From Geobacter sp. (lineage in GTDB: Bacteria > Desulfobacterota > Desulfuromonadia > Geobacterales > DSM-12255), in the NCBI GenBank assembly GCA_009886125.1, contig VFJK01000001.1, forward strand, positions 1-46,641: a DNA stretch of 46,641 nucleotides, given 5' to 3'. Positions within the stretch are counted from its first letter, which is position 1, and every line of letters begins with the position of its first letter. The translations under genes were made by a program, and so were the position numbers. Shown piece after piece: positions 9,748 to 29,758 of the stretch. A model generated the notes under the pieces. It was not told the DNA's origin. It was given only the letters and a program-made list of their open reading frames with translations, and did not search any database.

Positions 9748-10815
9748 ATGGGAACTCAAACCAATCTGAATCACCATCGTAAGGAGATGCTTTTGAATTC
9801 GTGGATATTGTGTGTCCTGATCCTGCTTATCGGCGCAGTTTTCCCTACATGGGCGAACGAAACGCCGCAGACCTGGTCATTTGTGGTCATGGGTGATACC
9901 CGTGACAAGATCACTGCCACTGCTACCGGCATCAGTCCTGACCTTCATCGTCTGGCAACGGCCATTGCCATGGAACATCCTGATCTTGTCATCCATACCG
10001 GAGACCTGACAAACGGCTATTTCACCGACACGGATTCACCAATGCACGGCAGGTTTGTTGAGATGTTCCGGAACTGGAAAACCGCGGTACAGCCGATCTA
10101 TGACTACCGTACCGGAAAAGGGACGCCGATCTATCCGGTGCGCGGCAACCATGAGGACGGAAAACTGGTGACCGACTCCAGGCTGAAGAAAGCCTATTCC
10201 GAAGAGTTTGCCACGATGATGCCCCAGAATGGGCCCCCTCAGGAAAAGGGGCTGACCTACAGCCTCACACACAAAGGAGCACAATTCATTGCCCTTGATG
10301 GCTATAACAGGAAGAATCTGGCGATCGTGCGGGGTTATGTGGATCAGGAGTGGCTCGACTCGACCTTTGCCAGCTACAGGCAGCCGTTCACCTTTGCTTT
10401 TTCCCATACGCCCGCTTTCAAGGTCGGCACTTCTCACAAATCACCCTTTCCCGATTTATACTCCCATACCGGCAGTCGGGACACTCTCTGGAAAAGCTTT
10501 AAGCAGGGAGGGACTCTGGCGTATTTCTGCGGCCACATCCACCTCTACTGCCGCGGCACGGTCGATGGCATAGAGCAGGTGGTGGTTGGAGCCGGCGGAG
10601 CGGATACGGTCGCCTATGATGCCGGCAATGTCGATGAGCGCCTCACCATGCATTATCCGGCCGCGCAGATGGCTGCTGCCGACGTCTGGACCGGCTATCT
10701 CGTCATGACCGTCGATGAACGTGCAAAAAAGGTTACCGGTGTGCAGAAGCTCTGGAATGCTCAGAAGGGGCTCTGGGTACGCGGAGATGTTTTTACTCTG
10801 CATCTGCCACGCTGA
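9748..10815 (+). CDS. Exported calcineurin-like metallophosphoesterase
   Basis: The conserved metal-binding blocks of the calcineurin-like family are in order: VVMGDTRD, HTGDLTNG, RGNHED, FSHTPAF and CGHIHLY. The hydrophobic stretch WILCVLILLIGAVFPTWA followed by NETPQ looks like a Sec signal peptide with cleavage after TWA, so the enzyme should act in the periplasm. The substrate is not evident. The start is uncertain: ATG 9748 gives a basic HHRK n-region before the hydrophobic core, while TTG 9793 has a perfect AAGGAG six bases upstream but no basic n-region. A much longer reading from 9601 is not credible. It stands between vapBC and lpd. Confidence 0.8.
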   Translation: MGTQTNLNHHRKEMLLNSWILCVLILLIGAVFPTWANETPQTWSFVVMGDTRDKITATATGISPDLHRLATAIAMEHPDLVIHTGDLTNGYFTDTDSPMHGRFVEMFRNWKTAVQPIYDYRTGKGTPIYPVRGNHEDGKLVTDSRLKKAYSEEFATMMPQNGPPQEKGLTYSLTHKGAQFIALDGYNRKNLAIVRGYVDQEWLDSTFASYRQPFTFAFSHTPAFKVGTSHKSPFPDLYSHTGSRDTLWKSFKQGGTLAYFCGHIHLYCRGTVDGIEQVVVGAGGADTVAYDAGNVDERLTMHYPAAQMAAADVWTGYLVMTVDERAKKVTGVQKLWNAQKGLWVRGDVFTLHLPR

Positions 10816-10892
10816 GTCAATCAGCACGTAAAGGCAGATCTTTTCAAAATCAGGACAAAACATTTGAACCGGTTACATGAGGAGAGCTGATA

Positions 10893-12311
10893 ATGCCTGA
10901 CAAAACATACGACCTGATCATCATCGGCGGCGGCCCTGGCGGCTATGTCGCTGCCATCAGGGGTGCACAGCTCGGGATGAGTGTCGCGGTGGTGGAAAAG
11001 CGGGAGACGCTCGGCGGGGTCTGCCTGAACGAAGGCTGTATCCCGAGCAAGGCACTGCTCGATTCATCGGAGCTGTTCGCCCAGGCGCGGGACAAGTTCG
11101 GAATTCACGGCATCCTGATCGATCCTCCCCGTCTCGATCTGGCAAAGATGATGGCACGCAAGGATGACGTCGTGAAGAAGAACACTGACGGCATAGCATA
11201 CCTGTTCAAGAAGAACGGCATCACCTTTATTCAGGGGAGCGGCAGGATCGGGAAGGTGGAGGGCGACTCTCTGACTGTCGAGGTGACCCTTCCGGGGCAC
11301 AGCAAACCTGAAATACTCAGAGGGAAACGGCTCCTGCTGGCGACTGGGAGCAGAGCAGTAGAGCTTCCAGGACTGCCGTTCGACGGCAAGCGGATAGTCT
11401 CCGCCCGTGAAGCCCTTTCATTCGCTGCCGTTCCGGAGCATCTGCTGGTAGTCGGCGCCGGCTATATCGGCCTTGAACTGGGATCGGTCTGGCTGCGGCT
11501 CGGAGCGAAAGTCACGGTTGTCGAAATGCTGGACAAACCGTTGGCGACGATGGATGGTCAGGCGGCAGACGCGCTGGTAAGAGCATTGAAAAAACAGGGG
11601 ATGAAATTCCTGTTCGGCACAAAGGTGACTTCTGCTGAAGCTCAAGGGGATACTCTGAAAGTCTCTCTTTTCGGTGCTTCAGGAGAGCAGGAGCTGCTCT
11701 GCGACCGGATACTGGTCGCTGTCGGTCGCAGACCGCTTGTTGACGGTCTGGGTCTGGAGGAAGCGGGCATTTTTCTGGACAGCTCGGGAAGAGTGATTGT
11801 CGATAAAGAGTATCGGAGTTCGGCAGAGGGGATCTATGCCATCGGCGACCTGATCCACGGCCCCATGCTTGCCCACAAGGCTTCCGAGGAGGGGGTGGTC
11901 GCTGTCGAACGGATGCATGGTGAGGCTTCGGTGGTCGATTATGAATACCTGCCGGGGGTCTGCTATACCTGGCCTGAAGCCGCATCAGTGGGGATGACCG
12001 AGGAGCAGCTGAAAAGCGAAGGGATCGTCTACGCTGTCGGCAGGTTCAATTTCCTCGCCAATGGTCGAGCCCGCTGCATGGACGAGACCGACGGGTTCGT
12101 GAAGATCCTGGCGGCTCAGGACTCAGGGCAGATACTCGGTATACATATCGTCGGGCCGAGAGCCTCGGACCTGATCGCCGAGGCAGTCACCGCCATGACC
12201 TTCGGAGCGACAGCCGAGGATATGGCGATGACCTTTCATGCCCATCCGACGCTTTCGGAGGCGTTGAAAGAGGCGGCGCTGGATGTAATGAAACGGGCGA
12301 TACATGCATAG
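10893..12311 (+). CDS. lpd: Dihydrolipoamide dehydrogenase (E3)
   Basis: The 472-residue flavoprotein has the FAD-binding GGGPGGYVAAIRGAQLG motif, the redox disulfide in GGVCLNEGCIPSK (Cys44 and Cys49), a second Rossmann motif for NAD (GAGYIGLELGSVW), the FAD motif YAIGDLIHGPMLAHKASEEG, and the C-terminal HAHPTLSEALKEA with the catalytic His-Glu pair. It reoxidises dihydrolipoamide on E2 with NAD+. The most likely partner is SucAB, about 2 kb upstream, but it may serve other 2-oxoacid complexes as well. A GAGGAG site lies before the ATG. Confidence 0.95.
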   Translation: MPDKTYDLIIIGGGPGGYVAAIRGAQLGMSVAVVEKRETLGGVCLNEGCIPSKALLDSSELFAQARDKFGIHGILIDPPRLDLAKMMARKDDVVKKNTDGIAYLFKKNGITFIQGSGRIGKVEGDSLTVEVTLPGHSKPEILRGKRLLLATGSRAVELPGLPFDGKRIVSAREALSFAAVPEHLLVVGAGYIGLELGSVWLRLGAKVTVVEMLDKPLATMDGQAADALVRALKKQGMKFLFGTKVTSAEAQGDTLKVSLFGASGEQELLCDRILVAVGRRPLVDGLGLEEAGIFLDSSGRVIVDKEYRSSAEGIYAIGDLIHGPMLAHKASEEGVVAVERMHGEASVVDYEYLPGVCYTWPEAASVGMTEEQLKSEGIVYAVGRFNFLANGRARCMDETDGFVKILAAQDSGQILGIHIVGPRASDLIAEAVTAMTFGATAEDMAMTFHAHPTLSEALKEAALDVMKRAIHA

Positions 12312-12340
12312 CATTTTGTAACTCTTATTCTTTCACAGCA

Positions 12341-12414
12341 AACCCCTCTAAATCTCCCCTTAACAAGGGAGACTTCAAGGCTTCCCCCCTGTCAAGGGGG
12401 GATTGAGGGGGGTT
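12341..12414. repeat. C/G-rich nested inverted repeat
   Basis: Outer arms AACCCCTCTAAATC and GATTGAGGGGGGTT are inverted with three mismatches. Inside lie two hairpins, around CTCCCCTT/AAGGGAG (12354-12371) and TCCCCCCT/AAGGGGGGA (12383-12402). It resembles dispersed intergenic repeats and may also attenuate read-through from lpd into the aconitase gene. Confidence 0.6.
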
Positions 12415-12453
12415 GGTTTTAGCTGTTCCATGGTACTAGATACGGAGGAAGTC

Positions 12454-14421
12454 ATGCCAAAAAACCTCGCCACAAAGATTCTTGAAGCTCACCTCGTCTC
12501 CGGGGAGCTGATCCCCGGCACCGAGATCGCTCTGAAGATCGACCATACGCTGCTCCAGGACGCAACCGGGACCATGGCGATGCTTGAGTTCATTGCTATG
12601 GGGGTCGAGCGGGTCAAGGTGGAACTGGCCGCCCAGTACATCGATCACAACCTGCTGCAGACCGACAACCGGAACGCTGACGACCATATTTTTCTGATGA
12701 CCGCTGCGGAACGCTTCGGCATCCATCTCTCGAAGCCCGGTAACGGCGTATCGCATCAGGTGCATCTGGAGCGCTTCGGCCTCCCCGGCAAGATCATGCT
12801 CGGAGCCGACTCCCACACCCCCTCTGCCGCAGGTGTGGGGATGCTCGCCATCGGTGCCGGTGGTCTTGATGTCGCCCTTGCCATGGCCGGGCATCCGTTC
12901 TATCTCCCCTGCCCGAAAATCTGGGGGATCAAGCTGACAGGGCGCCTGCCGGAATGGGTCTCAGCCAAAGATGTCATCCTGGAGATGCTCCGCCGCCATA
13001 CGGTCAAGGGGGGAATCGGCAGGATCATCGAATACTACGGTGAAGGGGTGAAGAGCCTTTCCGCAACGGACCGGGCAGTCATTGGGAACATGGGAGCCGA
13101 ACTCGGAGCGACCACCAGCATCTTCCCGTCCGATGAACGGACACGGGAGTTCCTCGAAGCGCAGGGGAGAGTCGGCGGCTGGATACCGATGGAAGCAGAC
13201 CCCGGAGCCGCTTATGACGAGTATGATGAAATCGACCTTTCGACACTGGAGCCGCTCATAGCGCGCCCCTCATCGCCTGACAACATTGTCACGGTCAGGG
13301 AGCTTGCCGGGCTGAAAGTCGACCAGGTACTGGTGGGAAGCTCGGCGAACTCTGCATTCCGTGATCTGATGACCGCCTGCCGCATCCTTGAAGGGCGCAA
13401 GATCGCTCCGCACCTTTCATTCAATGTGAACCCGGGCAGCCGGCAGGTGATCGAGAACGTCGCCGCTCAGGGGGGGTTTCTGATGCTTCTTCAGGCAGGT
13501 GCACAGGTGCATCAGCCCGGCTGTCTCGGCTGCATCGGCATGGGGCAGGCTCCCGGGACCGGTCAGGTTTCGCTGCGCACGTTTCCGCGCAATTTCCCCG
13601 GACGGAGCGGCACCAAAGGTGACCAGGTCTACCTCTGTTCACCTGAAACAGCTGCTGCTGCCGGGATTTTCGGCGTAGTGACCGACCCGCGGGAGCTGGG
13701 GAAGCTCATGAAATGGCCGGATGTGCAGAATCCATCGACCTATCTTCTGGACGATTCGAGCATCAACTTCCCCCTCCCTCCTGTCGAAGCCGCAAAGATC
13801 GAGATAGTCACCGGACCGAATATCGTGCCGTTCCCGGATTTTGAACCGATGCCGGAAGACCTAGCGGTAGAGGTCATCCTCAAGACCGGAGACAACATCT
13901 CCACCGACACGATCATGCCTGCCGGGAACAAGGTGCTCCCGTACAGAAGTAACATCCCGGCCATATCACAGTTCGTGTTCGAACAGATCGCCCCCGGTTT
14001 TGCAGAAAAAGCACAATCAAAAACTGCCGGCGCAGTGGTCGGCGGAGACAATTACGGTCAGGGCTCCAGCCGTGAACATGCTGCGCTGGCCCCCCGTTAT
14101 CTAGGCATCCGGGTAAAGCTCGTGAAGAGCTTTGCCCGGATCCACAAGGCGAATCTGGTGAACTTCGGCATTCTTCCACTGATCTTCAAGGATCCGCTTG
14201 ACTACGACCTGATAGCTGACGGAGACATCCTCATATTTAAAGGGGTCCGAAGCCTTATAATCAAAGGGGCGACCGAGATACCGGCAGAACTCGGCAACAG
14301 AACGATTATGACCATTCTCGACGTTTCAGACCGCCAGCGAAGGGAGCTCGTGGCAGGCGGGACGCTCAATTATGTGAGAAATGCCGGAAAATGGGAGGAT
14401 GCCCCTCACGGATGTCTTTGA
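12454..14421 (+). CDS. Aconitate hydratase, Aquifex-type
   Basis: This 655-residue protein interconverts citrate and isocitrate in the TCA cycle. The start is ATG 12454 behind CGGAGG. The aconitase/3-isopropylmalate dehydratase large-subunit part has GADSHTPSAAGVGMLAIGAGGLDVA and HQPGCLGCIGMGQAPGTG, with two cysteines that bind the [4Fe-4S] cluster. The swivel domain follows in the same chain (about 500-645) with NYGQGSSREHAALAPRYLG. Its length and layout fit the shorter Aquifex-type family rather than the ~900-residue AcnA. The segment that in classical aconitases reads GSCTN, giving the third cluster ligand, is here GSSAN, so that cysteine is not at the usual place. It follows lpd in the same direction. 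Confidence 0.88.
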   Translation: MPKNLATKILEAHLVSGELIPGTEIALKIDHTLLQDATGTMAMLEFIAMGVERVKVELAAQYIDHNLLQTDNRNADDHIFLMTAAERFGIHLSKPGNGVSHQVHLERFGLPGKIMLGADSHTPSAAGVGMLAIGAGGLDVALAMAGHPFYLPCPKIWGIKLTGRLPEWVSAKDVILEMLRRHTVKGGIGRIIEYYGEGVKSLSATDRAVIGNMGAELGATTSIFPSDERTREFLEAQGRVGGWIPMEADPGAAYDEYDEIDLSTLEPLIARPSSPDNIVTVRELAGLKVDQVLVGSSANSAFRDLMTACRILEGRKIAPHLSFNVNPGSRQVIENVAAQGGFLMLLQAGAQVHQPGCLGCIGMGQAPGTGQVSLRTFPRNFPGRSGTKGDQVYLCSPETAAAAGIFGVVTDPRELGKLMKWPDVQNPSTYLLDDSSINFPLPPVEAAKIEIVTGPNIVPFPDFEPMPEDLAVEVILKTGDNISTDTIMPAGNKVLPYRSNIPAISQFVFEQIAPGFAEKAQSKTAGAVVGGDNYGQGSSREHAALAPRYLGIRVKLVKSFARIHKANLVNFGILPLIFKDPLDYDLIADGDILIFKGVRSLIIKGATEIPAELGNRTIMTILDVSDRQRRELVAGGTLNYVRNAGKWEDAPHGCL

Positions 14422-19677: not shown

Positions 19678-20304
19678 TTATGGAATCTTTGCGTCGAGCT
19701 TGTCGCTCTTGATTCTTCTCAACATGACTTCAGGAGATACGTCAAACACGCCGGACAGTCTGCTTGCAAGCGAGTTCACCACAAAATCCAGATAAGCAGC
19801 ACGATGTATCCCGGCGCTTTTCGCCGCAACAATTTCAGACTGAATCTCCGGCAATACTTGTTTGAATTTTGCTGCCAAGTGATGCTTCGGAACCAGGAGA
19901 TACCCTGCAAAAGCATATCCTTGATACTCGTAACTATCCTTATCCGCCCCTAAGTCTCTAACGAATTGCCGCCACGAGTCCACGTCGTCAAAAGTTGCGA
20001 GTTCCTCCAGAAGCGCTCTATGCAGGACGAAGTGCCCTACCTCGTGAGCAAGCGTAAACCGGTAACGTGTAGGCCTGTTGTTCTGAATGTTATCGTCAAC
20101 GTAGATGCTGGAAAAATCTCTAGTCAGAAACCCGTCAATTTCGAAACCCTTCAACAAACCAGGTGTCGGAACGATGTCCAGTCCCAATTGCAATTCAATA
20201 ATTTCCTCAATCGGCACGGGCAGCGAATCTTGCGGATGGTATTCTTGCAGGAATGTCATTGCTGCTTCGTGAATCTGGTCATTCGTCAGGAACGGAATCG
20301 CCAT
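19678..20304 (-). CDS. ImmA/IrrE-family zinc metallopeptidase
   Basis: This 208-residue protein has the zinc-peptidase motif HEVGH (His87, Glu88, His91) in YRFTLAHEVGHFVLHRALLEE, followed by the acidic third-ligand region expected of the COG2856 fold. ImmA-type enzymes cut a partner Xre repressor in mobile elements, and IrrE-type enzymes cut a repressor in the DNA-damage response. The start lies one base after the stop of the Xre gene, so the pair is translated together. The likely substrate is the Xre protein or another island repressor. Pairs of this kind have also been classed as toxin-antitoxin systems. Confidence 0.85.
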   Translation of the reverse strand: MAIPFLTNDQIHEAAMTFLQEYHPQDSLPVPIEEIIELQLGLDIVPTPGLLKGFEIDGFLTRDFSSIYVDDNIQNNRPTRYRFTLAHEVGHFVLHRALLEELATFDDVDSWRQFVRDLGADKDSYEYQGYAFAGYLLVPKHHLAAKFKQVLPEIQSEIVAAKSAGIHRAAYLDFVVNSLASRLSGVFDVSPEVMLRRIKSDKLDAKIP

Positions 20305-20305
20305 C

Positions 20306-20680
20306 TTAACTCCTTCGGATGAGTTCGGCCAGATCCGGCAGTTTCTCGTCGGGAACGTCCTGACCTCTCAACGTCCGGAAGAGTAACGGTAGCTTTGCGG
20401 CAAGCTGCTTGTCATCCAGAATGTCCGGCGGAATCATCCCTGAGCAGGCTGATGCAAGATCGTAAAATCTGAACCAATCGTCACTCCCTTTTTCAATTTT
20501 CAAATACTGTGCATATTCATCGAGCTTTTCCCTTGTTTTTGATGGTGCGATCAACCCCCTTTCCAGCTTGCTGATGTTACCTGCATCGAGACTGTTACGC
20601 TGGCAAAAACTCCGCAGCGTTTCACCCTCTTTCACGCGCATCTCCTTGAAAAAACGCCCAAACTCCTCCAGGGCACTCAT
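20306..20680 (-). CDS. Xre-family HTH repressor paired with ImmA-like peptidase
   Basis: The start at 20680 follows AAAGGGGG on the minus strand. The 124-residue protein has an N-terminal Cro/C1-type helix-turn-helix (about 10-58: LRSFCQRNSLDAGNISKLERGL) and a C-terminal tail ending LPDLAELIRRS that may hold the peptidase-sensitive region. It should bind the palindrome at its own promoter. Together with the ImmA-like gene it forms a self-contained regulatory module immediately downstream of the restriction locus. Confidence 0.82.
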   Translation of the reverse strand: MSALEEFGRFFKEMRVKEGETLRSFCQRNSLDAGNISKLERGLIAPSKTREKLDEYAQYLKIEKGSDDWFRFYDLASACSGMIPPDILDDKQLAAKLPLLFRTLRGQDVPDEKLPDLAELIRRS

Positions 20681-20717
20681 GACATGTTCCCCCTTTCTGT
20701 AGTCCTCCGCGTTGGTA

Positions 20718-20757
20718 GTGTTGTACAATTTATACAACACACCAAGTAAGCTGTCAA
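20718..20757 (-). promoter_or_regulatory. Strong promoter with palindromic operator for xre-immA pair
   Basis: On the minus strand TTGACA (20757-20752), a 17-bp spacer and TATAAA (20734-20729) form a near-consensus promoter. The -10 is covered by an 8-bp inverted repeat, GTGTTGTA (20718-20725) and TACAACAC (20733-20740). Binding there would block RNA polymerase, a typical autorepressor layout. Confidence 0.8.
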
Positions 20758-20776
20758 GCTGCAATAAAACAGGCAT

Positions 20777-20878: not shown

Positions 20879-21946
20879 TCACCTGGCCTTGCAACTGATT
20901 ATTTCCTTTTTGCCATAAAACAGATGAACTTCGCATGACAAAGGCTTATCTTTTTGGACGGTGAAAAAGAAGCTCCCAGAAGTTCTCTTTACCAGGATTT
21001 CTCCTTCCTGCTTATATGTCTTCAAAAATTTAATAAACTTTTCCTGAACCTGTTCCGCGGTATTAACTCCGTTCATGGTTGATCCTAACTCACGGCGTCT
21101 TGTTTTGCTTTCCTCGAAACCGCTACATTGCCATTTTTTTGAAGTGTTGCTTAAAAAATGATTAGTTTGAACGTGAATATCATTATTCAGTTTCTGTTTT
21201 TCCACCCCTTTGTCGCTATCTGGGATAACTTCTACAGAATAGGCCTTATCAGGGAATATCACATAGTGATGATTGGGAAGAGTTGAAGGGTACTTTTGAT
21301 ATATCGCCTCGATTTCGTCGATTGTCGACATCTCAAGCATCATCCGGGTGAAGACTGTTTTGGGGATTCTCTTGTCCCATGAAGCTTGAAGCTTTTTCAA
21401 TGTGTCTTTATTGCACCCAATGGAATTACCTTGGAAGGCAAAGTTTTGGTTCATCCCTACAGCACTGCCAAGCAACTGGAAGGGATGGGAAACTGAATGG
21501 AAATATTTAGTCTTGCCTTTTTTTACTTCAAGAGAAACATCTGCAACCACCATTGGGTACTGTCCATCATACTCATCGGAGTGAGCGAGAAAATATCCAT
21601 CACTTGTTTTTAAAACTACTGATGAACAGAGATCAGTCTCCGCAAGCCAACAGGTAAAAAGGCCGAAAATAGTCACTTCAAATCCGATTTTGGACTCGTT
21701 TATGCCGATAGTCATACCCACAAGTTCATCAAAAAGACTTGGAAATTGCCGAACCATATCTGTCAGGAGCTTACCACGGTCTTCATCAATATTAGTGTCC
21801 TGAAGCCATTCCCTGTAATCGTAGTAGAGATGTCGCTGACAAGGGATTTCTTTATTCAATTTGGTAAAATAATCACCCCAATACTTGCCAAGCCCTCGGC
21901 CAATCTCGAAATTATTCCCTTCAAGTTGTATTAGCGGTTCAATCAT
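20879..21946 (-). CDS. C45-like Ntn hydrolase (acyltransferase/peptidase) coupled to hsdS
   Basis: The 355-residue protein has the outline of the C45 penicillin acyltransferase-like family: GNNFEIGRGLGKYW near the N-terminus, then ETDLCSSVVLKTSDGYFLAHSDE, where Cys107 would be the N-terminal nucleophile released by self-cleavage, and later WDKRIPKTVFTRMML and PNHHYVIFPDKAYSVEV. Family members hydrolyse or transfer amide-linked acyl groups. No signal peptide is seen, so it should be cytoplasmic. Its ATG overlaps the TAA of hsdS (TAATG), which ties its translation to the specificity subunit. Codon use is visibly more A/T-rich than hsdR and hsdM, as for the C39-like gene, suggesting separate acquisition. 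The substrate is unknown and the family call rests on motifs only. Confidence 0.65.
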   Translation of the reverse strand: MIEPLIQLEGNNFEIGRGLGKYWGDYFTKLNKEIPCQRHLYYDYREWLQDTNIDEDRGKLLTDMVRQFPSLFDELVGMTIGINESKIGFEVTIFGLFTCWLAETDLCSSVVLKTSDGYFLAHSDEYDGQYPMVVADVSLEVKKGKTKYFHSVSHPFQLLGSAVGMNQNFAFQGNSIGCNKDTLKKLQASWDKRIPKTVFTRMMLEMSTIDEIEAIYQKYPSTLPNHHYVIFPDKAYSVEVIPDSDKGVEKQKLNNDIHVQTNHFLSNTSKKWQCSGFEESKTRRRELGSTMNGVNTAEQVQEKFIKFLKTYKQEGEILVKRTSGSFFFTVQKDKPLSCEVHLFYGKKEIISCKAR

Positions 21947-23382
21947 TAATGCTCCTTGGCAATACTTTTCTTTTGCGCATCTATTTTCTTGCTTACTTGT
22001 GGCACGCTCTGTTTCTGCTTGCGTATCCGTTCCAGCAGCACCGCCGCCGGTTCATCGTTCGGGTCCTGCGGCACCAGTTCTCCGCGGAAAGCCTTGGCGA
22101 GGATGGATTGGGTGAGTTTGTCCACGTGGGTCTTGGCCTTCCGGTAGCGGGCTTCCAGCTGATCGGCGAGGGTGAAGAAGGATTCGACGCGGCGGACGAT
22201 TTCTTGTTGTTCGGGGAGAGGGGGGTACGGGATTGGTTGCTCAGTAATTGCACCCATTGAAATTCTCTGGTGGCCTGCAGAAGACTTTGAAGAAATAGTT
22301 ATGAATTCTCTTAATACTGGGCTTCCAAAACATATTTCAAGATAGGGTGCAGTGCTTTGGTCCTTCAAACGTGCACAAAAAAGTCTGTCTGGATATTGTA
22401 ATTTTTTCCCACTCAGACCACGAACCAATCCGCAATTTGCCACATACTCCAAACTGCCACTAAGTCGAGTAAACAAGAGATCAAAATCTTGAATAAAGTT
22501 TGCTGGATTTGTGCTCTGCTGATCTGACAGATACCGAACATCAGAGAAATCAACTGACCCAATGCGGACACTACTTGAACGCAGGATCGGGAACGATGTT
22601 GTCTCGTTTACAGGAACCTCAGTTGAGCCGCTTCGGAACATAGTTGTAAGCTGGCCAAACTTCACCCATTTCCATGACTCAGGTATATCTGGCAAGCTTT
22701 CATCAACTGCTTGCTTTTCAACAAAAGCTGAAGGATTCTCCTCCCGCCAATCAGACGTCAGCCGCCCGGAGCAGGCAGCGGCAAGCACTGCCTGGCGGAA
22801 GCGCTTGAGAATGACCGGAATCTTCGCCAGCCGCTGCTGGCTGGCGTCCACTCTTGTCAGCACATCTTCCAGCTTGGCGACGATGCGGCGCTGTTCGTTG
22901 AGGGGAGGAAGAGGGAATGGAATTTTCAAGATATCAAGAGAAGAAAGATGCCCTACAGTGACCGAGGAAGTAGCATCTTGAATTGCCATTAGATAGCCAT
23001 TCAGCCCGTAAAAGACGAATTTGCGACATATGGATTCTTCGCTCGGAATGATCTTGCAAACCCGTTGATTGAGTCCTGCCTTTCCTCCTGACCACTCCCA
23101 GCAGGCAAAGTTACCATCCATACCAATCAGCAAATCGCCACTATCGACAATGTAATCGGGCGGGAAATCTCCATCATAAAGCGTTTCAGCTGTTCCCTTT
23201 GAAAGATCGCGAATTCGGATAATCGGAAAACCCTTATCGTTATTGAAGCGCGACGACTTGAAGGCAAATCCATTGAGAATTCTACAAACAGCTCCAAGCT
23301 CTACCCGTTGCCAGGATTGATGGTTCGCAAGCAGCCCCGTCTTGTTTGCAAAGATTTCCTCTAATGGAACGACGAGACTCAA
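21946..23382 (-). CDS. hsdS: Type I restriction-modification specificity subunit
   Basis: This 478-residue subunit has the two-target-domain plan of HsdS. The first recognition domain (about 22-150) is followed by the conserved LPPLNEQRRIVAKLEDVLTRVDASQQRLAKI helix, the second (about 235-380) by PPLPEQQEIVRRVESFFTLADQLEARY and a final conserved AKAFRGELVPQDPNDEPA. Each recognition domain reads one half of a bipartite DNA site. It overlaps hsdM by four bases (ATGA) at its start and the C45-like gene by one base at its end. Both target domains look complete. Confidence 0.93.
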   Translation of the reverse strand: MSLVVPLEEIFANKTGLLANHQSWQRVELGAVCRILNGFAFKSSRFNNDKGFPIIRIRDLSKGTAETLYDGDFPPDYIVDSGDLLIGMDGNFACWEWSGGKAGLNQRVCKIIPSEESICRKFVFYGLNGYLMAIQDATSSVTVGHLSSLDILKIPFPLPPLNEQRRIVAKLEDVLTRVDASQQRLAKIPVILKRFRQAVLAAACSGRLTSDWREENPSAFVEKQAVDESLPDIPESWKWVKFGQLTTMFRSGSTEVPVNETTSFPILRSSSVRIGSVDFSDVRYLSDQQSTNPANFIQDFDLLFTRLSGSLEYVANCGLVRGLSGKKLQYPDRLFCARLKDQSTAPYLEICFGSPVLREFITISSKSSAGHQRISMGAITEQPIPYPPLPEQQEIVRRVESFFTLADQLEARYRKAKTHVDKLTQSILAKAFRGELVPQDPNDEPAAVLLERIRKQKQSVPQVSKKIDAQKKSIAKEH

Positions 23383-24833
23383 ACCTCTACCCCCTCTTCC
23401 CGCTCAATCAGCCGGATAATCTCCCGCAGATCATCCACCACCGCTTCCAGCTCGGTGATCGCCTCGGCGGCCAGGTCCTGGGGGTCGGGAAGTTCGTTGC
23501 CGTCCTCCAGGGATTCGTCCTTCAGCCAGGTGATGTCCAGCTTGTAGTCGCGCCCCTTGATGTCTGCCAGGGTGAACGGGCGAAAACGGCCCGTCTCGCC
23601 GCCATCAATGCGGGGGGAGCGACCATTGGGGTCATTGCCGTAGGCAGCATCGAACTCGGCAAAATGCTGGGCCGAAAGGGGGCGGTCCTTCTTGGTGATG
23701 CCGGGGACATTGGAGCGGGCGTCGAAAATCCAGGTGGTCTCGGTAGGCAGCCCCTTCTGGAAAAAGATAACATTGGCCTTGACCCCTTGGCTGTAGGGGG
23801 TGAAGGTGCCTCGCGGCAAGCGGAGGACGGTGTGCAGGTTGCAGTCCTGCATGAGGATTTCGAAGACCTCGCCCGCCTTACCCTCGAACAGGCAGTTGTC
23901 CGGCAACACCATGGCGGCCCGGCCGCCGGGCTTCAGGGAGTTGACCACGTGCTGGACAAAGTTGAGCTGTTTGTTGCTGGTCTCGATGGTGAAATCTTCC
24001 CGGTCCGGCGCCTGATTGGCCCCTTTGGTGCCGAAGGGTGGGTTGGTAAGAATAACGTCGAACTTGTCGGCGCCGGGCGGCTCATAGATGGTGTCTCCCA
24101 GCCGAATCTGCGGCTCCACGTTGTGCAGGTAGAGGTTCATCAGCGCCAGCCGCCGCGGCCGGGCTACCAGATCCTGACCGTAGTAGGTGGAAGTGCGAAT
24201 CCGCTTGGCATCGGCCCGGTCAAAGGCCCCTTTGGTCTTGCCAAAGAGCCATTCATAGGCGCAGACCAGAAAGCCGCCGGTGCCGCAGGCCGGATCGCAG
24301 ATTTTGAAATCCGCCTTGCCGCGCGGATCGGGCTGCATCACCCGGACGATGGACTGAATGAGAACCCGCGGCGTGAAATACTGCCCCGCCCCCTTCTTCC
24401 CTTCGCTGGCGGCCTTCTCCAGCAGCCCCTCAAAAGCGGCCCCCTTCACATCCACATCCAGACCGGTCCACTCTTCATCATCAATCAGGCCGATAATCTT
24501 TTTCAGACTCACCGGGCTGTTGAACTGGTTCTTCGACTGGGCAAAGATATCCCCCAGCATCCCCTGCTGACTGCTCAGGGCGCGGAGTACCTCGGAGAAA
24601 TGGTAGAGGACCGCCGTGCCGGACTTGTTCCGCAGAGCGGCCCAACTGCAGTCGGTGGTAATTGTCTCATGCTTCTCGTTGACCCAGGAGATGGCGTGCA
24701 GCTCAATTCCCTTTTCATCGGACATCTTGAGAAACAGCAGGTAGGTGAGCTGCTCGATATAATCGCCATAATCGATGCCGTCATGGCGCATCTGGTGGCA
24801 GAAGCCCCAGAGTTTGTTGACAATGTCAGACAT
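23379..24833 (-). CDS. hsdM: Type I restriction-modification DNA methyltransferase subunit
   Basis: The 484-residue protein has the HsdM N-terminal helical domain (MSDIVNKLWGFCHQMRHDGI...), the SAM-binding motif ICDPACGTGGFLVCAYEW, and the catalytic NPPF of N6-adenine methyltransferases (TNPPFGTKGANQ). With HsdS it methylates adenine in the target site, and with HsdR added it restricts unmodified DNA. An AAGGA site precedes ATG 24833. It follows the C39-like peptidase gene by 21 bases. It appears intact. Confidence 0.95.
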   Translation of the reverse strand: MSDIVNKLWGFCHQMRHDGIDYGDYIEQLTYLLFLKMSDEKGIELHAISWVNEKHETITTDCSWAALRNKSGTAVLYHFSEVLRALSSQQGMLGDIFAQSKNQFNSPVSLKKIIGLIDDEEWTGLDVDVKGAAFEGLLEKAASEGKKGAGQYFTPRVLIQSIVRVMQPDPRGKADFKICDPACGTGGFLVCAYEWLFGKTKGAFDRADAKRIRTSTYYGQDLVARPRRLALMNLYLHNVEPQIRLGDTIYEPPGADKFDVILTNPPFGTKGANQAPDREDFTIETSNKQLNFVQHVVNSLKPGGRAAMVLPDNCLFEGKAGEVFEILMQDCNLHTVLRLPRGTFTPYSQGVKANVIFFQKGLPTETTWIFDARSNVPGITKKDRPLSAQHFAEFDAAYGNDPNGRSPRIDGGETGRFRPFTLADIKGRDYKLDITWLKDESLEDGNELPDPQDLAAEAITELEAVVDDLREIIRLIEREEGVEV

Positions 24834-24854
24834 GAATTCCTTTTTATTCTTGAG

Positions 24855-25448
24855 TTATTTCTTAGGCCTTCTGAGAAGCAGGCATTCGCGTTCTAATTTA
24901 CTGCCAAGCACATATTTTTTACTGTTTGAGAAAGTATCAATCCATTCGTAACTAATTTTCAGATTAGGACCTTGTGGATCAATTGGTCGTTCAAATTGGA
25001 TGGCACCAGGTATAGATTTTTTTGGACTTGGGTCGAAACAGTGTAACCAGCTATTCTCTGACTTAATCCCCAAAATGTAATGCCAGTTCTTTTTCGTCGA
25101 ATGAATATTTATAAGGGCAACTCCGTTTTCATTTAAACATCTTGCTATCTTATTGCCTGGTCCGAGATGGACATCACTTCCCGTTATGAACTCCGTTTCA
25201 AGGGCAAACGTCTGGTAATTTTTATCTTTGTAATTTTCCAGCCACTCTCCAAGATGCTTAACTGCACAACCTGTCGTGCCGTGACCATGCCTATGAGAGG
25301 AAGAATCATAATCAAGACAATAGAGATAAGTTTTGTGAATAACTATAGGTGGAATTTCCTCTCTTTTGAAAAGATAAATTAATGCATTAATAAATGTGGT
25401 TGGAACACAATCATAGTCAGATATTTGCTCTCTAAAGGGTACCTTCAT
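24855..25448 (-). CDS. C39-like cysteine peptidase between hsdR and hsdM
   Basis: This 197-residue protein starts at 25448 with AGGAGG seven bases upstream. The N-terminal QISDYDCVPTTFINALIYL fits the oxyanion Gln8 and nucleophile Cys14 of papain-like C39 peptidases. NWHYILGI (His123) and CFDPSP (Asp139) fit the rest of a catalytic triad. There is no signal peptide, transporter domain or membrane segment, so it is a free-standing cytoplasmic enzyme, unlike the C39 domains of bacteriocin exporters. It lies 18 bases after hsdR and 21 before hsdM, and so is inside the operon. It is markedly more A/T-rich than its neighbours. The substrate is unknown. Confidence 0.65.
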   Translation of the reverse strand: MKVPFREQISDYDCVPTTFINALIYLFKREEIPPIVIHKTYLYCLDYDSSSHRHGHGTTGCAVKHLGEWLENYKDKNYQTFALETEFITGSDVHLGPGNKIARCLNENGVALINIHSTKKNWHYILGIKSENSWLHCFDPSPKKSIPGAIQFERPIDPQGPNLKISYEWIDTFSNSKKYVLGSKLERECLLLRRPKK

Positions 25449-25466
25449 AGATCATCCTCCTGCTTA

Positions 25467-28169
25467 TTACACCGCAACTGCCTCATTGAACCGCTTCACC
25501 AGCACTTCCAGCTTCCCGCCAAACTCCCGGTTCGCCCGCCCCCAACCGCCGGCATGGGAGAACACCGGCATATCATCAAAATCATCGCGGCTGATGGAGA
25601 GATTCTGCACCAGATGCACCCGCACCCGCTCCAGCCATTCCAGCTGCTGCGGCGTAAAGGTCTGCCCTCCGGTGATCCGCATCATGGCCCGCTGTACCCG
25701 CTCCTGGGCGGTGAACAGCTCCTTCTCCGCCGCTGCCGCATGCTGCACCATGGAGATAATGTCGGCCATGGCCTTGTGGTAGGTCAGTTCGTGGGCCTTC
25801 TGCAGCCGCTCGTCGTTGAAACGGAGTGACGCCGCCGCCAGCTTGCTGCGCAGCTCGGTCAAGGCGTCCACATTCCAGTCTGCGGGCCGGTCGAGGAGAA
25901 TCTGCACCGCCTCGATATCGCTTTTGTGTTCACGGATGTAGTTGGCAAAGGCCGCCAGATAGTCCGCCGGTTTGTACTCGTTGCCGGCGCTGTCCCGGAT
26001 CAGCCAGACGCTCTCCACCTGATCTTCCAGCTCGTAACTCTTGAGAAAGGTCCGCTCCGGGCGTTTGTAGTTGACCAAAAGATCCTGAAAGGCCGGACTG
26101 CGCAGCATCTCCATGGTAGCGGCGAAGCGGCTCTTGAGATTCTGCGGCAGTTCATCGGCATAGCGGGCCAGATCGCCGCCGGCAATGAAGGCGCTGAAAT
26201 CCGTGCGGGATTCGCCGCTCATCTCCTTGTCGATCCGCTGCAGCCGCTTGACCAGACAGCGGCTGTTGTACTCCCGATCTTTGTTTTGCCAGATATCCTC
26301 GATGATCTCGATGATGGTGCGGGTTTTGGGGGCCGGTTTCAGGGCGGTAATGGCGGTGGCGCTGCGGAAGAACTCCAGCAGGGTGCCGTCGAAACAGTCA
26401 AAGACGGTGAAGTGGGATTTGTCCGGGTATTTCTCCCCCTTGCGGGTGCCGCGGCCGAGCATCTGCTCGAAGAGGATGCGAGACTTGACCGGCCGCAGGA
26501 AAACGATGAACTCCAGATCTGGAATATCGACACCGGTAGTGAGCAGGTCAACCGTGACGGCAATGGAAGGCTGAGGCCGGTTACGGAACTCGCGAATGCG
26601 CTGAAGCGGCCGATCCACCCGACCGGTGATCTTGGCAGCAAAGGCCTCGCCCTTGCCGAAGACCTCCCGCGCCAGCTCCACCAACTGGTCGGCATGGGAG
26701 GTGTGGGGCAGGTCGTTGGCAGCAAAAATCAGCGTTTTCGGGAAACGGCCGTATTTCGCCTCATGCTCATCGGCATAGGTCTTGATCTCTTCCAGAATCT
26801 TCCGGTTGGAGCTCGGCACGGTCACCTTGCTCTCCAGTTCCGAAACCTCGAAGCCGCGGTCGTCTTCCAGATTGTCCAACTGCTCAGCGCCGCTGGCGGT
26901 ATCCACCAGACCGACCAGTTCCCCCTCTTTCAGGAAAGCGCCGTTCATGCGGACTTCCGAGCGAATCGCCACCACATCGTAATCCACCAGATGCCCTTCC
27001 CTGATGGCCCGCTCGTATTCGTAGCGATAGACCAGATGCTTGAAGAAGGTGGTGGTGTGGGCCGCCGGGGTGGCGGTCAAGCCGATCTTGATGGCGTCAA
27101 AGTGGTCCAGCGTCGCCCGCCAGGTGGCGACCTCCTGGGCGGTGTAGCCGCGATGGCATTCATCGGCGATGATCAGGTCAAAGGCGTGAATGGGGATGTC
27201 TAGCTGGCCGGCATCATCTTCCTCGTCCCCTTCGCCGTTGAAAGCTGCATTACGACCGAAGAGGTTGATAGTCATCCGCTGGATGGTGCTGATGTAGAGA
27301 AAGGCGTCGCCCGGCTTGGGGGCGGTCAGATAGCTGTTGGGCAGAACCTTGGGATCGAACTTTTCACCCTCTTCAAAGTCTCCGGTCTGGAAACGCTGAC
27401 TGTAGACTTCGTAGATGGCATCAAACTTGTGCCCCGGCTCCGGCTCGAAAGCGGCAAAGGAGCGGACCGCCTGGGCGGCCAGGGCGCGGCGGTCGACGAG
27501 GAACAGCACCCGTAGCGCCACGCCGCACTTCATCAATCGATAGACCTGGTTGACCATGGTGAAGGTCTTGCCGGTGCCGGTCGCCATGGCAACCAGCATG
27601 TGATGCTTCCGCTCGCCAATGGCTTTTTCCACTTCGGTGTTGCACTCCCGCTGGTGAGGGCGCAGCCGCTGGTGGTCATTGGCCAGCCTCTGCAGGGCAC
27701 TGCAGGCGGCATCCAGATTCCGGCCCAGCTTTTCCAGCAGTGCCGCCGGAGTGTGAAAAGCGGTGAGCTGCCGCGAGCGACTGTTTTCGTGACGAATGTC
27801 GTGATGCCAGATCAGCTCGCCGTTGGTGGCGTAGAGAAAGGGGACGTAGTAAGGGCCAAAGGAAAGGTCGCTGCCGCTAACGCCGCGGGAGTAGCGCTGT
27901 GCCTGGGTCAGGACGTTCTGCGGGCCGAGAGAAAGTTTTTTCGCTTCGACAATGCCAAGGATTTTGCCGCCGACACAGAGGGCATAGTCGGCCGGGCCGT
28001 TGTCAGTCGGGTACTCGACGATGGCACAGCCATCATAGGCAGCCAGAGGTTTAGTGGGGTTGTACGCGCAGACTTTCCAACCGGAGGAGGCAAGTTTCGG
28101 ATCTACCAGCTTGCGGCGGGTCAGCCATTCGGAGTTGGCTGTGGAAGCGGATGTTCTGGCAGCTGTCAT
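25467..28169 (-). CDS. hsdR: Type I restriction endonuclease/translocase subunit
   Basis: The 900-residue protein starts with an HsdR N-terminal nuclease domain containing PADYALCVGGKILGIVEAKK (the D...ExK cleavage motif). It continues with a superfamily 2 DNA translocase: Walker A MATGTGKTFTMV, DECHRG, GLTATP, and the helicase C part with MLGRGTR. The C-terminal domain resembles EcoEI-type HsdR proteins. It pumps DNA and cuts away from the recognition site when the site is unmethylated. The ATG at 28169 is preceded by a run of eight G residues that must serve as ribosome-binding sequence (see findings). It is the first gene of the operon. Confidence 0.95.
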   Translation of the reverse strand: MTAARTSASTANSEWLTRRKLVDPKLASSGWKVCAYNPTKPLAAYDGCAIVEYPTDNGPADYALCVGGKILGIVEAKKLSLGPQNVLTQAQRYSRGVSGSDLSFGPYYVPFLYATNGELIWHHDIRHENSRSRQLTAFHTPAALLEKLGRNLDAACSALQRLANDHQRLRPHQRECNTEVEKAIGERKHHMLVAMATGTGKTFTMVNQVYRLMKCGVALRVLFLVDRRALAAQAVRSFAAFEPEPGHKFDAIYEVYSQRFQTGDFEEGEKFDPKVLPNSYLTAPKPGDAFLYISTIQRMTINLFGRNAAFNGEGDEEDDAGQLDIPIHAFDLIIADECHRGYTAQEVATWRATLDHFDAIKIGLTATPAAHTTTFFKHLVYRYEYERAIREGHLVDYDVVAIRSEVRMNGAFLKEGELVGLVDTASGAEQLDNLEDDRGFEVSELESKVTVPSSNRKILEEIKTYADEHEAKYGRFPKTLIFAANDLPHTSHADQLVELAREVFGKGEAFAAKITGRVDRPLQRIREFRNRPQPSIAVTVDLLTTGVDIPDLEFIVFLRPVKSRILFEQMLGRGTRKGEKYPDKSHFTVFDCFDGTLLEFFRSATAITALKPAPKTRTIIEIIEDIWQNKDREYNSRCLVKRLQRIDKEMSGESRTDFSAFIAGGDLARYADELPQNLKSRFAATMEMLRSPAFQDLLVNYKRPERTFLKSYELEDQVESVWLIRDSAGNEYKPADYLAAFANYIREHKSDIEAVQILLDRPADWNVDALTELRSKLAAASLRFNDERLQKAHELTYHKAMADIISMVQHAAAAEKELFTAQERVQRAMMRITGGQTFTPQQLEWLERVRVHLVQNLSISRDDFDDMPVFSHAGGWGRANREFGGKLEVLVKRFNEAVAV

Positions 28170-28298: not shown

Positions 28299-28664
28299 TC
28301 ACTTAATCCATTCAAAGTAAACGGAACCGATCACTCGCTTTCCGTCCAGGTAACCGGCGATTGAATATGTTGCTCCGTTAAAATCTATCGACCTGTACAG
28401 CTTGCCTTTCACAAAGAACTCCGATGCTGGGCCATCAGGTTCCTGATCTTCGTCAGCGATATAGCGTAATATCCTGACGCAAGGTTTTCTCTTGAAAGCT
28501 TCACTCGCCACGTCTTCCCCGACAAGAGTTTTTACATCCTTAAAAGTGTCAAAATGCTCCATCATCTTATGCAGACGGCGAGCGGCTTCATACCCTTCAT
28601 AATGATCACCGATTACCTCATTGCCTGTTGTCAAGGGCTCCTCCTCCAGTTTTATTGCAAACAT
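28299..28664 (-). CDS. Unknown protein between hsdR and WYL regulator
   Basis: The start is taken at ATG 28664, with AAGGA just upstream; a TTG at 28736 would put the WYL operator inside the gene. The 121-residue product (MFAIKLEEEPLTTGNEVIGD...) has an acidic N-terminal half with helices around YEGYEAARRLHKMMEHFDTF and a strand-rich C-terminal half (GKLYRSIDFNGATYSIAGYL, VIGSVYFEWIK). No known motif, signal peptide or membrane segment is seen. It points the same way as the restriction operon, with a 129-bp gap to hsdR, and is divergent from the WYL gene, so the palindrome at 28693-28711 may control both. Confidence 0.55.
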   Translation of the reverse strand: MFAIKLEEEPLTTGNEVIGDHYEGYEAARRLHKMMEHFDTFKDVKTLVGEDVASEAFKRKPCVRILRYIADEDQEPDGPASEFFVKGKLYRSIDFNGATYSIAGYLDGKRVIGSVYFEWIK

Positions 28665-28711
28665 TTCCTTATCTGCTATTATCACCCATGAATGCGTCAG
28701 AAAGTGACGCA
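28655..28711 (+). promoter_or_regulatory. Promoter and palindromic operator of the WYL regulator gene
   Basis: TTGCAA (28655-28660), a 16-bp spacer and TATTAT (28677-28682) preceded by TGC form an extended -10 promoter. A perfect inverted repeat TGCGTCA (28693-28699), GAAAG, TGACGCA (28705-28711) begins just past the expected start point near 28690. Binding there would block elongation, a layout known for WYL repressors next to defence genes. Confidence 0.55.
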
Positions 28712-28759
28712 ATAATGTGCTTTTATTTAATGGCAAATTTTTTCGTAAAGGAGCTCTTC

Positions 28760-29758
28760 ATGGATACTCTCTACCGCCGCTGGCTGATCCTCTGCTTGAT
28801 CCCCCGCTACGGAAACAGCATCACTGTCAGTCAGATTGCTGATCGGCTCAGTACCAGAGGCGCTGAAAGAGCGTCTGTGAGAACCATCCAGCGCGACCTG
28901 GAGGAGCTTTCCACTTTTCCCATAACCAGTGAGCTGAACGGTCGCACTTTTCACTGGAGCTGGGCAGAAAACGCCAGACGTTTTGATCTCCCAGTGATGG
29001 ACCCGCAGACAGCCCTTACCTTCCATTTGGTCAGGGAGCATCTGACACCCCTGCTCCCCGCTTCGTCCCTGAAGTATCTGGAATCATACTTCACCACAGC
29101 CGCTTCTATCCTCTCCGGCAATAATGAAATGCCCCTCGCGCAGTGGCGCGACAAGGTGCGAAAAATCTCTCGTGGCTTGCAGATGGAACCGCCGAGCATA
29201 AGCCCCGGAGTAGCCGAGGTTGTCTACGAAGCACTGCTGCGGGAACGGTGCCTGCGGGTCAGCTACCGGCCAAGATCGGAAGGCACCGCCAAAGAGTACA
29301 AGGAGCTGAACCCCCTCGGACTGGTTCTGGTAGGCAGTCTGGTCTATCTGGTAGCAACAATCGGAGAGTACACCAACCCCCTCCAGTTCCTGCTGCACCG
29401 GATGGAGGAAGCAACCATGCTGGACAAACCGGTAACGGTTCCAGAAGGGTTTTCCCTGCAACGATATATCGAAAGCGGTGAGTTCAGTTATCCGGTGGGT
29501 AAGGAGACGATTCGCCTGAAGGCACTTTTTGACAAGGATGCTGCCGCTTATCTGCACGAGACACCTCTGCCAGGCCTGTTCAGTCTGACTGATGATGAAA
29601 AGGAAGAGACCGTGTTGCTGGAAGCTGAAGTGCTTGACAGCCTTCAACTGCGCTGGTGGTTGCGGGGATTTGGTGATTCGGTAGAGGTGCTGGAGCCTTT
29701 GGAATTGCGGGAGGAGTTTAAGGAGATGGCGAAAAACCTGAAAAGTATTTACAGATAA
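28760..29758 (+). CDS. WYL-domain transcriptional regulator
   Basis: The start is ATG 28760, seven bases after AAAGGAG. The 332-residue protein has an N-terminal DeoR/YafY-type helix-turn-helix (TVSQIADRLSTRGAERASVRTIQRDLEELS) and a central WYL domain (about 150-225, with LRVSYRPRSEG...YKELNPLGLVLVGSLVYLVA), then a WCX-type C-terminal domain. WYL regulators sense a nucleic-acid or nucleotide ligand, and the BrxR and CapW proteins that control BREX, CBASS and restriction loci belong to this class. Its position beside hsdR and a palindromic site supports control of the island. It has no nuclease or peptidase domain. Confidence 0.88.
   Translation: MDTLYRRWLILCLIPRYGNSITVSQIADRLSTRGAERASVRTIQRDLEELSTFPITSELNGRTFHWSWAENARRFDLPVMDPQTALTFHLVREHLTPLLPASSLKYLESYFTTAASILSGNNEMPLAQWRDKVRKISRGLQMEPPSISPGVAEVVYEALLRERCLRVSYRPRSEGTAKEYKELNPLGLVLVGSLVYLVATIGEYTNPLQFLLHRMEEATMLDKPVTVPEGFSLQRYIESGEFSYPVGKETIRLKALFDKDAAAYLHETPLPGLFSLTDDEKEETVLLEAEVLDSLQLRWWLRGFGDSVEVLEPLELREEFKEMAKNLKSIYR

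Follow-up and report, generated by a model that had tools for sequence, protein, structure and literature searches.

Two putative hydrolase genes within a type I restriction operon of Geobacter sp.

Type I restriction (hsd) loci with embedded accessory genes are already known, prrC being an example: it lies within the ecoprrI locus and responds to a blocked enzyme, and HsdR is itself a known target of ClpXP proteolysis (both according to PMC12707154). Here we examine the window, by which we mean the entire 46,641-nucleotide stretch of DNA analysed (contig VFJK01000001.1 of Geobacter sp. assembly GCA_009886125.1, our C140, from a draft genome of 3.57 Mb in 192 contigs), wherein a type I restriction–modification (R–M) operon includes genes for a putative C39-like (papain-type) cysteine peptidase and a predicted C45-like Ntn hydrolase. 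Our preferred explanation, to which we assign a probability of roughly 0.55, is that a complete operon of order R-M-S captured these two accessory genes from the defence-island gene pool of its lineage. We favour this explanation because the operon is tightly packed, because both extra genes are preceded by plausible ribosome-binding sites and have G+C contents of 0.375 and 0.405 versus ~0.60 for hsdR and hsdM, because both families occur in unrelated loci, and because the operon of a sister genome carries another papain-like ORF (open reading frame) in the same position. In the part of the literature that our search covered, we came across no report linking a C39-, papain-, or C45-type protein to phage defence or restriction operons, although such a report may exist.

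Anatomy of the operon and its extra genes

The five genes are arranged head to tail on the minus strand in the order hsdR, C39-like, hsdM, hsdS, and C45-like. Searches with Pfam, NCBIfam, and PADLOC models, which provided the family labels for the window proteins, clearly identify the three hsd genes, in agreement with a first-pass annotation of this DNA. The hsdR gene (25467..28169, 900 amino acids) encodes an EcoAI/EcoEI-like restriction subunit (Pfam EcoEI_R_C and ResIII; PADLOC REase_I), hsdM (23379..24833, 484 amino acids) matches Pfam N6_Mtase and HsdM_N, and hsdS (21946..23382, 478 amino acids, with a TTG start) matches Pfam Methylase_S in two stretches. All three components of a type I R–M system are present in one locus with open frames. 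Gene positions and close packing are likewise as first described, with no gap above 21 bases: 18 bases separate hsdR from the C39-like gene and 21 separate the latter from hsdM, while hsdM overlaps hsdS by 4 bases and hsdS overlaps the C45-like gene by 1. The G+C content is 0.602 for hsdR, 0.598 for hsdM, and 0.490 for hsdS, and the lower values of the two extra genes bear out the description of both as A/T-rich cargo. These two genes represent more than chance ORFs, given the length of their frames and their conservation in further genomes.

The C39-like gene (24855..25448, minus strand) encodes a protein of 197 amino acids for which searches of Pfam, NCBIfam, and PADLOC models gave no match. 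Its assignment to the papain-type peptidases is weakly supported, by an alignment of the window protein with 14 relatives. Among these 15 sequences, Q8, C14, and H123 are invariant, position 139 is Asp in 11 and Glu in four, and eight members weakly match Peptidase_C39_2 (best E value 0.0012). The window protein presents this Gln-Cys-His-Asp-type set in order (Q8, C14, H123, and D139). The pattern, which was chosen after viewing the two papain-like families and was drawn from them, also occurs in 21 of 3000 shuffles and in 5 of 287 similar-sized ORFs, the five including both ORFs from the hsdR–hsdM slots discussed below. A single-sequence AlphaFold2 model was unusable (mean predicted local distance difference test score of 30), and a PDB sequence search with the C39-like profile returned nothing meaningful. 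The initial C39-like label is sustained by the conserved catalytic residues and by the weak matches of relatives, the protein itself having no match.

Membership of the other protein in the C45/AAT family is supported by sequence. The C45-like gene (20879..21946, minus strand, 355 amino acids) encodes a predicted Ntn hydrolase or acyltransferase that matches Pfam AAT with 38.1 bits against a cut-off of 23.2, and the NCBIfam C45 model with 80.2 bits, just under the cut-off of 85, so that the original identification holds. The pair C107-S108, which includes the candidate nucleophile, is invariant in all four aligned sequences, and the residue preceding Cys107 is Leu in the window copy, Gly in genome G145, and Ala in G535. 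A PDB sequence search with the C45-like profile found nothing meaningful. The two cysteines singled out at the outset, Cys14 and Cys107, are thus present at those positions and are conserved in 15/15 and 4/4 family members, respectively.

The hsdR–hsdM slot in related operons

Three close HsdM relatives were found, with 92, 83, and 81% identity. The closest operon is that of genome G595 (locus L050; HsdM 92% and HsdR 81% identical), and an HsdM tree of 55 sequences places the window and G595 as sisters (support 0.97) within a four-member clade that also includes G544 and G553 (support 0.999). In G595, a different ORF of 219 amino acids lies between hsdR and hsdM, separated from them by 10 and 1 bases. 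The five members of this 219-residue family share invariant Q29, C36, H149, and D172, two of them match Peptidase_C39_2 (best E value 0.0016), and the family profile matches the phytochelatin-synthase-like protein Alr0975 in the PDB (E value 1e-4), a papain-fold protein. The slot of G544 contains no peptidase-like gene, its hsdR and hsdM overlapping by 4 bases, and that of G553 is a 532-base gap with a 118-amino acid ORF that by eye is not peptidase-like. What is new is that unrelated papain-like ORFs occupy one position in sister operons, a pattern seen in two loci only. That the two operons differ in the peptidase-like gene at this site suggests that enzymes of this type serve as add-ons in bacterial defence.

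For a wider comparison of hsd loci, HsdM matches were recorded in 202 of 271 genomes and 47 of the listed places were taken, mostly in rank order, together with 6 of the 25 plasmid records listed from a total of 3318; less similar systems are thereby under-sampled. Among 55 loci, hsdR directly precedes hsdM in 13, hsdS lies between them in 19, and 22 lack an hsdR on the same strand in the 4 kb upstream; L097 was set aside because its unlabelled 131-amino acid ORF resembles part of an hsdS. The hsdM genes of the window, L085, and L092 were classed from raw ORFs, a reclassing from which L037 was left out. Classed by eye, the slot in the 13 loci holds a papain-like ORF in two, other genes in three, a piece of hsdR in one (L104, seemingly the end of a split hsdR), and nothing in seven.

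The first-pass annotation had made its proposal depend on finding either extra gene in related hsd loci, and the outcome is divided. Neither gene accompanies the operons of G544 and G553, and 45 further hsd loci (L053–L057 and L065–L104) carry no C39-like or 219-residue-family gene, their sole C45-like match (in L056) being the gene of G535 at the edge of the locus. On the positive side stand the papain-like ORF in the slot of the sister operon and another type I locus (L039), wherein a C39-like domain forms the C-terminal part of a 953-amino acid ORF (9929–12790) directly after hsdM and hsdS. The fusion partner comprises ~750 amino acids, and RecT-, exonuclease-, and RadC-like genes follow by eye. 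Cargo is also seen in loci of R-S-M order, where the same gene pair (463 and 221 amino acids) recurs between hsdS and hsdM in L074 (3491–5549) and L083 (3516–5574).

Beyond these operons, the 219-residue family has a member on a Pseudomonas luteola plasmid, close to a pair of hsdR- and hsdM-type genes, and another on a Prevotella plasmid, next to a Sir2 gene. A match from Pseudomonas aeruginosa, of more distant similarity, is an annotated transporter gene with no defence context.

Genomic settings of the two families

Both families were searched over 277 genomes of the class, the C39-like family with a profile and the C45-like family with a single protein, which makes the latter search less sensitive. 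C39-like matches were obtained in 15 genomes, of which 12 hold a full-length gene; in G556 the gene is in two pieces, G522 holds only a fragment, and the match in G409 is weak (E value 7.9e-4). Two genome scans do not list G595's own gene, which indicates that G595 was not among the genomes sampled there. The C45-like protein matched 2 of the 277 genomes and 3 of 375 genomes drawn from the phylum, where the gene of G145 is split and that of G154 is a short piece with an internal stop, and a C45-like profile matched 2 of 127 genomes of the order. The idea that the two hydrolases form one system was rejected, since both families occur together in only 1 of the 277 genomes, that of the window. 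For the same reason we regard them as separate accessories, contrary to the initial view that they belong together.

Plasmid searches with the window C39-like and C45-like proteins and with a C39-like relative gave no match, nor did a phage search with a C39-like relative; a plasmid search with a C45-like relative returned 16 records of distant C45 peptidases (23–24% identity). Scans of viral contigs revealed no relative, save one short match to the 219-residue family.

Around the C39-like relatives and in comparable loci, neighbouring genes were labelled mostly by eye. In the surroundings of several C39-like genes, near other genes of defence type, are RadC-, RecT-, and exonuclease-like genes together with one for a protein of ~92–104 amino acids; Pfam confirmed the RadC and RecT neighbours in one example each. 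In L004 (8700–19842), a C39-like gene adjoins an island whose proteins are, by eye, HSP90-like, radical-SAM-like, DGQHR-like (two), ParB-like, and SNF2-like.

The genome of the window carries a second C45-like copy (76% identical), which is the last gene of an unrelated minus-strand island on contig C81 (L011, 9513–17529). That island includes an AAA+ protein (Pfam) and, beside the C45-like copy, a WYL gene that shares 89% identity with the WYL-domain regulator of the window. It also encodes a protein that is caspase-like by eye and weakly matches DUF4347, and L064 seems by eye to hold a relative of the AAA+ protein. In G145, the C45-like gene follows a PLD-type protein, and by eye a WYL-like gene is found upstream; the C45-like gene is broken, and its other piece is beside a transposase-like ORF on another contig. 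In G535, genes on the opposite strand separate the C45-like gene from a 1037-amino acid ORF ~6 kb away, which is hsdR-like by eye and adjoins an hsdM labelled as such (26% identity); no WYL gene was noticed near the C45-like gene. Proteins that are FtsZ-like by eye recur in loci with 219-residue-family, C45-like, or C39-like genes (L063, 6636–7646; L049, 10813–11829, with a weak Pfam FtsZ_C match; L044, 8078–9073).

On either side of the window operon are further genes. The divergent WYL-domain regulator (28628..29758, plus strand; Pfam WYL and WCX) may, from its position, control the operon. Directly downstream are genes for a helix-turn-helix protein (20306..20776, minus strand; Pfam models below cut-off) and an ImmA/IrrE-type M78 metallopeptidase (19678..20304, minus strand; Pfam Peptidase_M78, PADLOC capP), which possibly constitute a separate two-gene regulatory unit (19678–20776).

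Competing explanations and comparison with known systems

Capture of the two genes is surer than any mechanism for them, which is much less certain. By analogy with PrrC, the papain-like protein might be made together with HsdR and HsdM and work alongside the restriction enzyme by cleaving proteins, most likely as an effector that would stay quiet while restriction works and be freed once restriction is blocked; we put this forward tentatively. Equally tentative is the suggestion that the C45-like protein, as an accessory of more general use, would hydrolyse or transfer the acyl group of an amide. Several observations weigh against the capture reading and its mechanism. Both proteins are hydrolases by prediction, the C39-like family occurs mostly outside hsd operons, and the slot holds other cargo in L052, L067, and L116. 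Moreover, hhalign gives a probability of only 2% for a relationship between the C39-like and 219-residue families, with the catalytic residues in register. G595 also has a C39-like gene at a separate locus (L042), and its operon therefore had access to that gene; together with the prevalence of the family outside hsd operons, this means that a specific link of the C39-like gene with restriction can only be tentative.

The other cargo in that slot, the A/T-richness of both extra genes, and the presence of their families in unrelated loci would also fit island genes that simply landed in the operon and were tolerated, with no role in restriction. Passive carriage of this kind is possible and in our view just as likely as an effector or general defence role, although intact frames with conserved catalytic residues, close packing of genes that have ribosome-binding sites, and the occurrence of unrelated papain-like ORFs at one position in both sister operons are not what it would predict. 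The location of the C39-like gene between hsdR and hsdM could instead reflect built-in restriction alleviation, wherein the papain-like protein would cleave HsdR or limit its assembly while host DNA is unmodified, as a local counterpart of E. coli ClpXP, which degrades HsdR and thereby delays restriction (PMC12707154). We consider this unlikely: by eye the C39-like family mostly adjoins genes other than hsdR, and G544 and G553 lack a C39-like gene although hsdR, hsdM, and hsdS are present. An effector or general defence role is preferred over alleviation because the family lies mostly outside hsd operons.

A different view is suggested by the two loci of the window's genome in which the same C45-like and WYL genes surround unrelated contents. 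These genes could mark the boundaries of a cassette, the interior of which is swapped between defence systems by recombination. The pattern is confined to two loci; G145 has the upstream WYL-like gene seen by eye, and none was noticed near the gene of G535. We judge the cassette somewhat improbable. Also doubtful is the broader proposition that the hsdR–hsdM slot of this lineage is a dedicated place for papain-type peptidases of different families, which would amount to a peptidase-armed type I restriction with proteolysis triggered by foreign DNA sensing or by a blocked enzyme.

Under the preferred reading of captured cargo, what follows depends on function. Should these peptidase-like proteins act together with the restriction enzyme, type I systems would possess a protein-cleaving arm in addition to their cleavage of DNA, and the sister operons, whose slots hold different peptidase-like genes, offer a direct way to test that link. 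If there is no functional link, the locus still shows accessory genes of the lineage entering and leaving restriction operons.

C39 peptidases usually accompany transporters, whereas no transporter is among the five operon genes of the window. The C39-like protein resembles the C39 families (PF13529 and PF03412) in the Gln-Cys-His-Asp/Glu order and through the weak profile matches of its relatives, and differs from them in having no profile match of its own. The C45-like protein shares with peptidase C45/AAT (PF03417 and NF040521) a profile match and the invariant C107-S108, but falls just below the NCBIfam cut-off, and the residue before the cysteine varies (Leu, Gly, or Ala). As in ecoprrI with prrC, complete hsd genes are combined with extra genetic material inside the operon, co-oriented and tightly packed (PMC12707154); unlike prrC, the extra genes of the window number two and are hydrolase-like rather than encoding an anticodon nuclease. 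From position, the window may nonetheless possess a guardian of the PrrC type, silenced by the R–M enzyme and activated on its inhibition.

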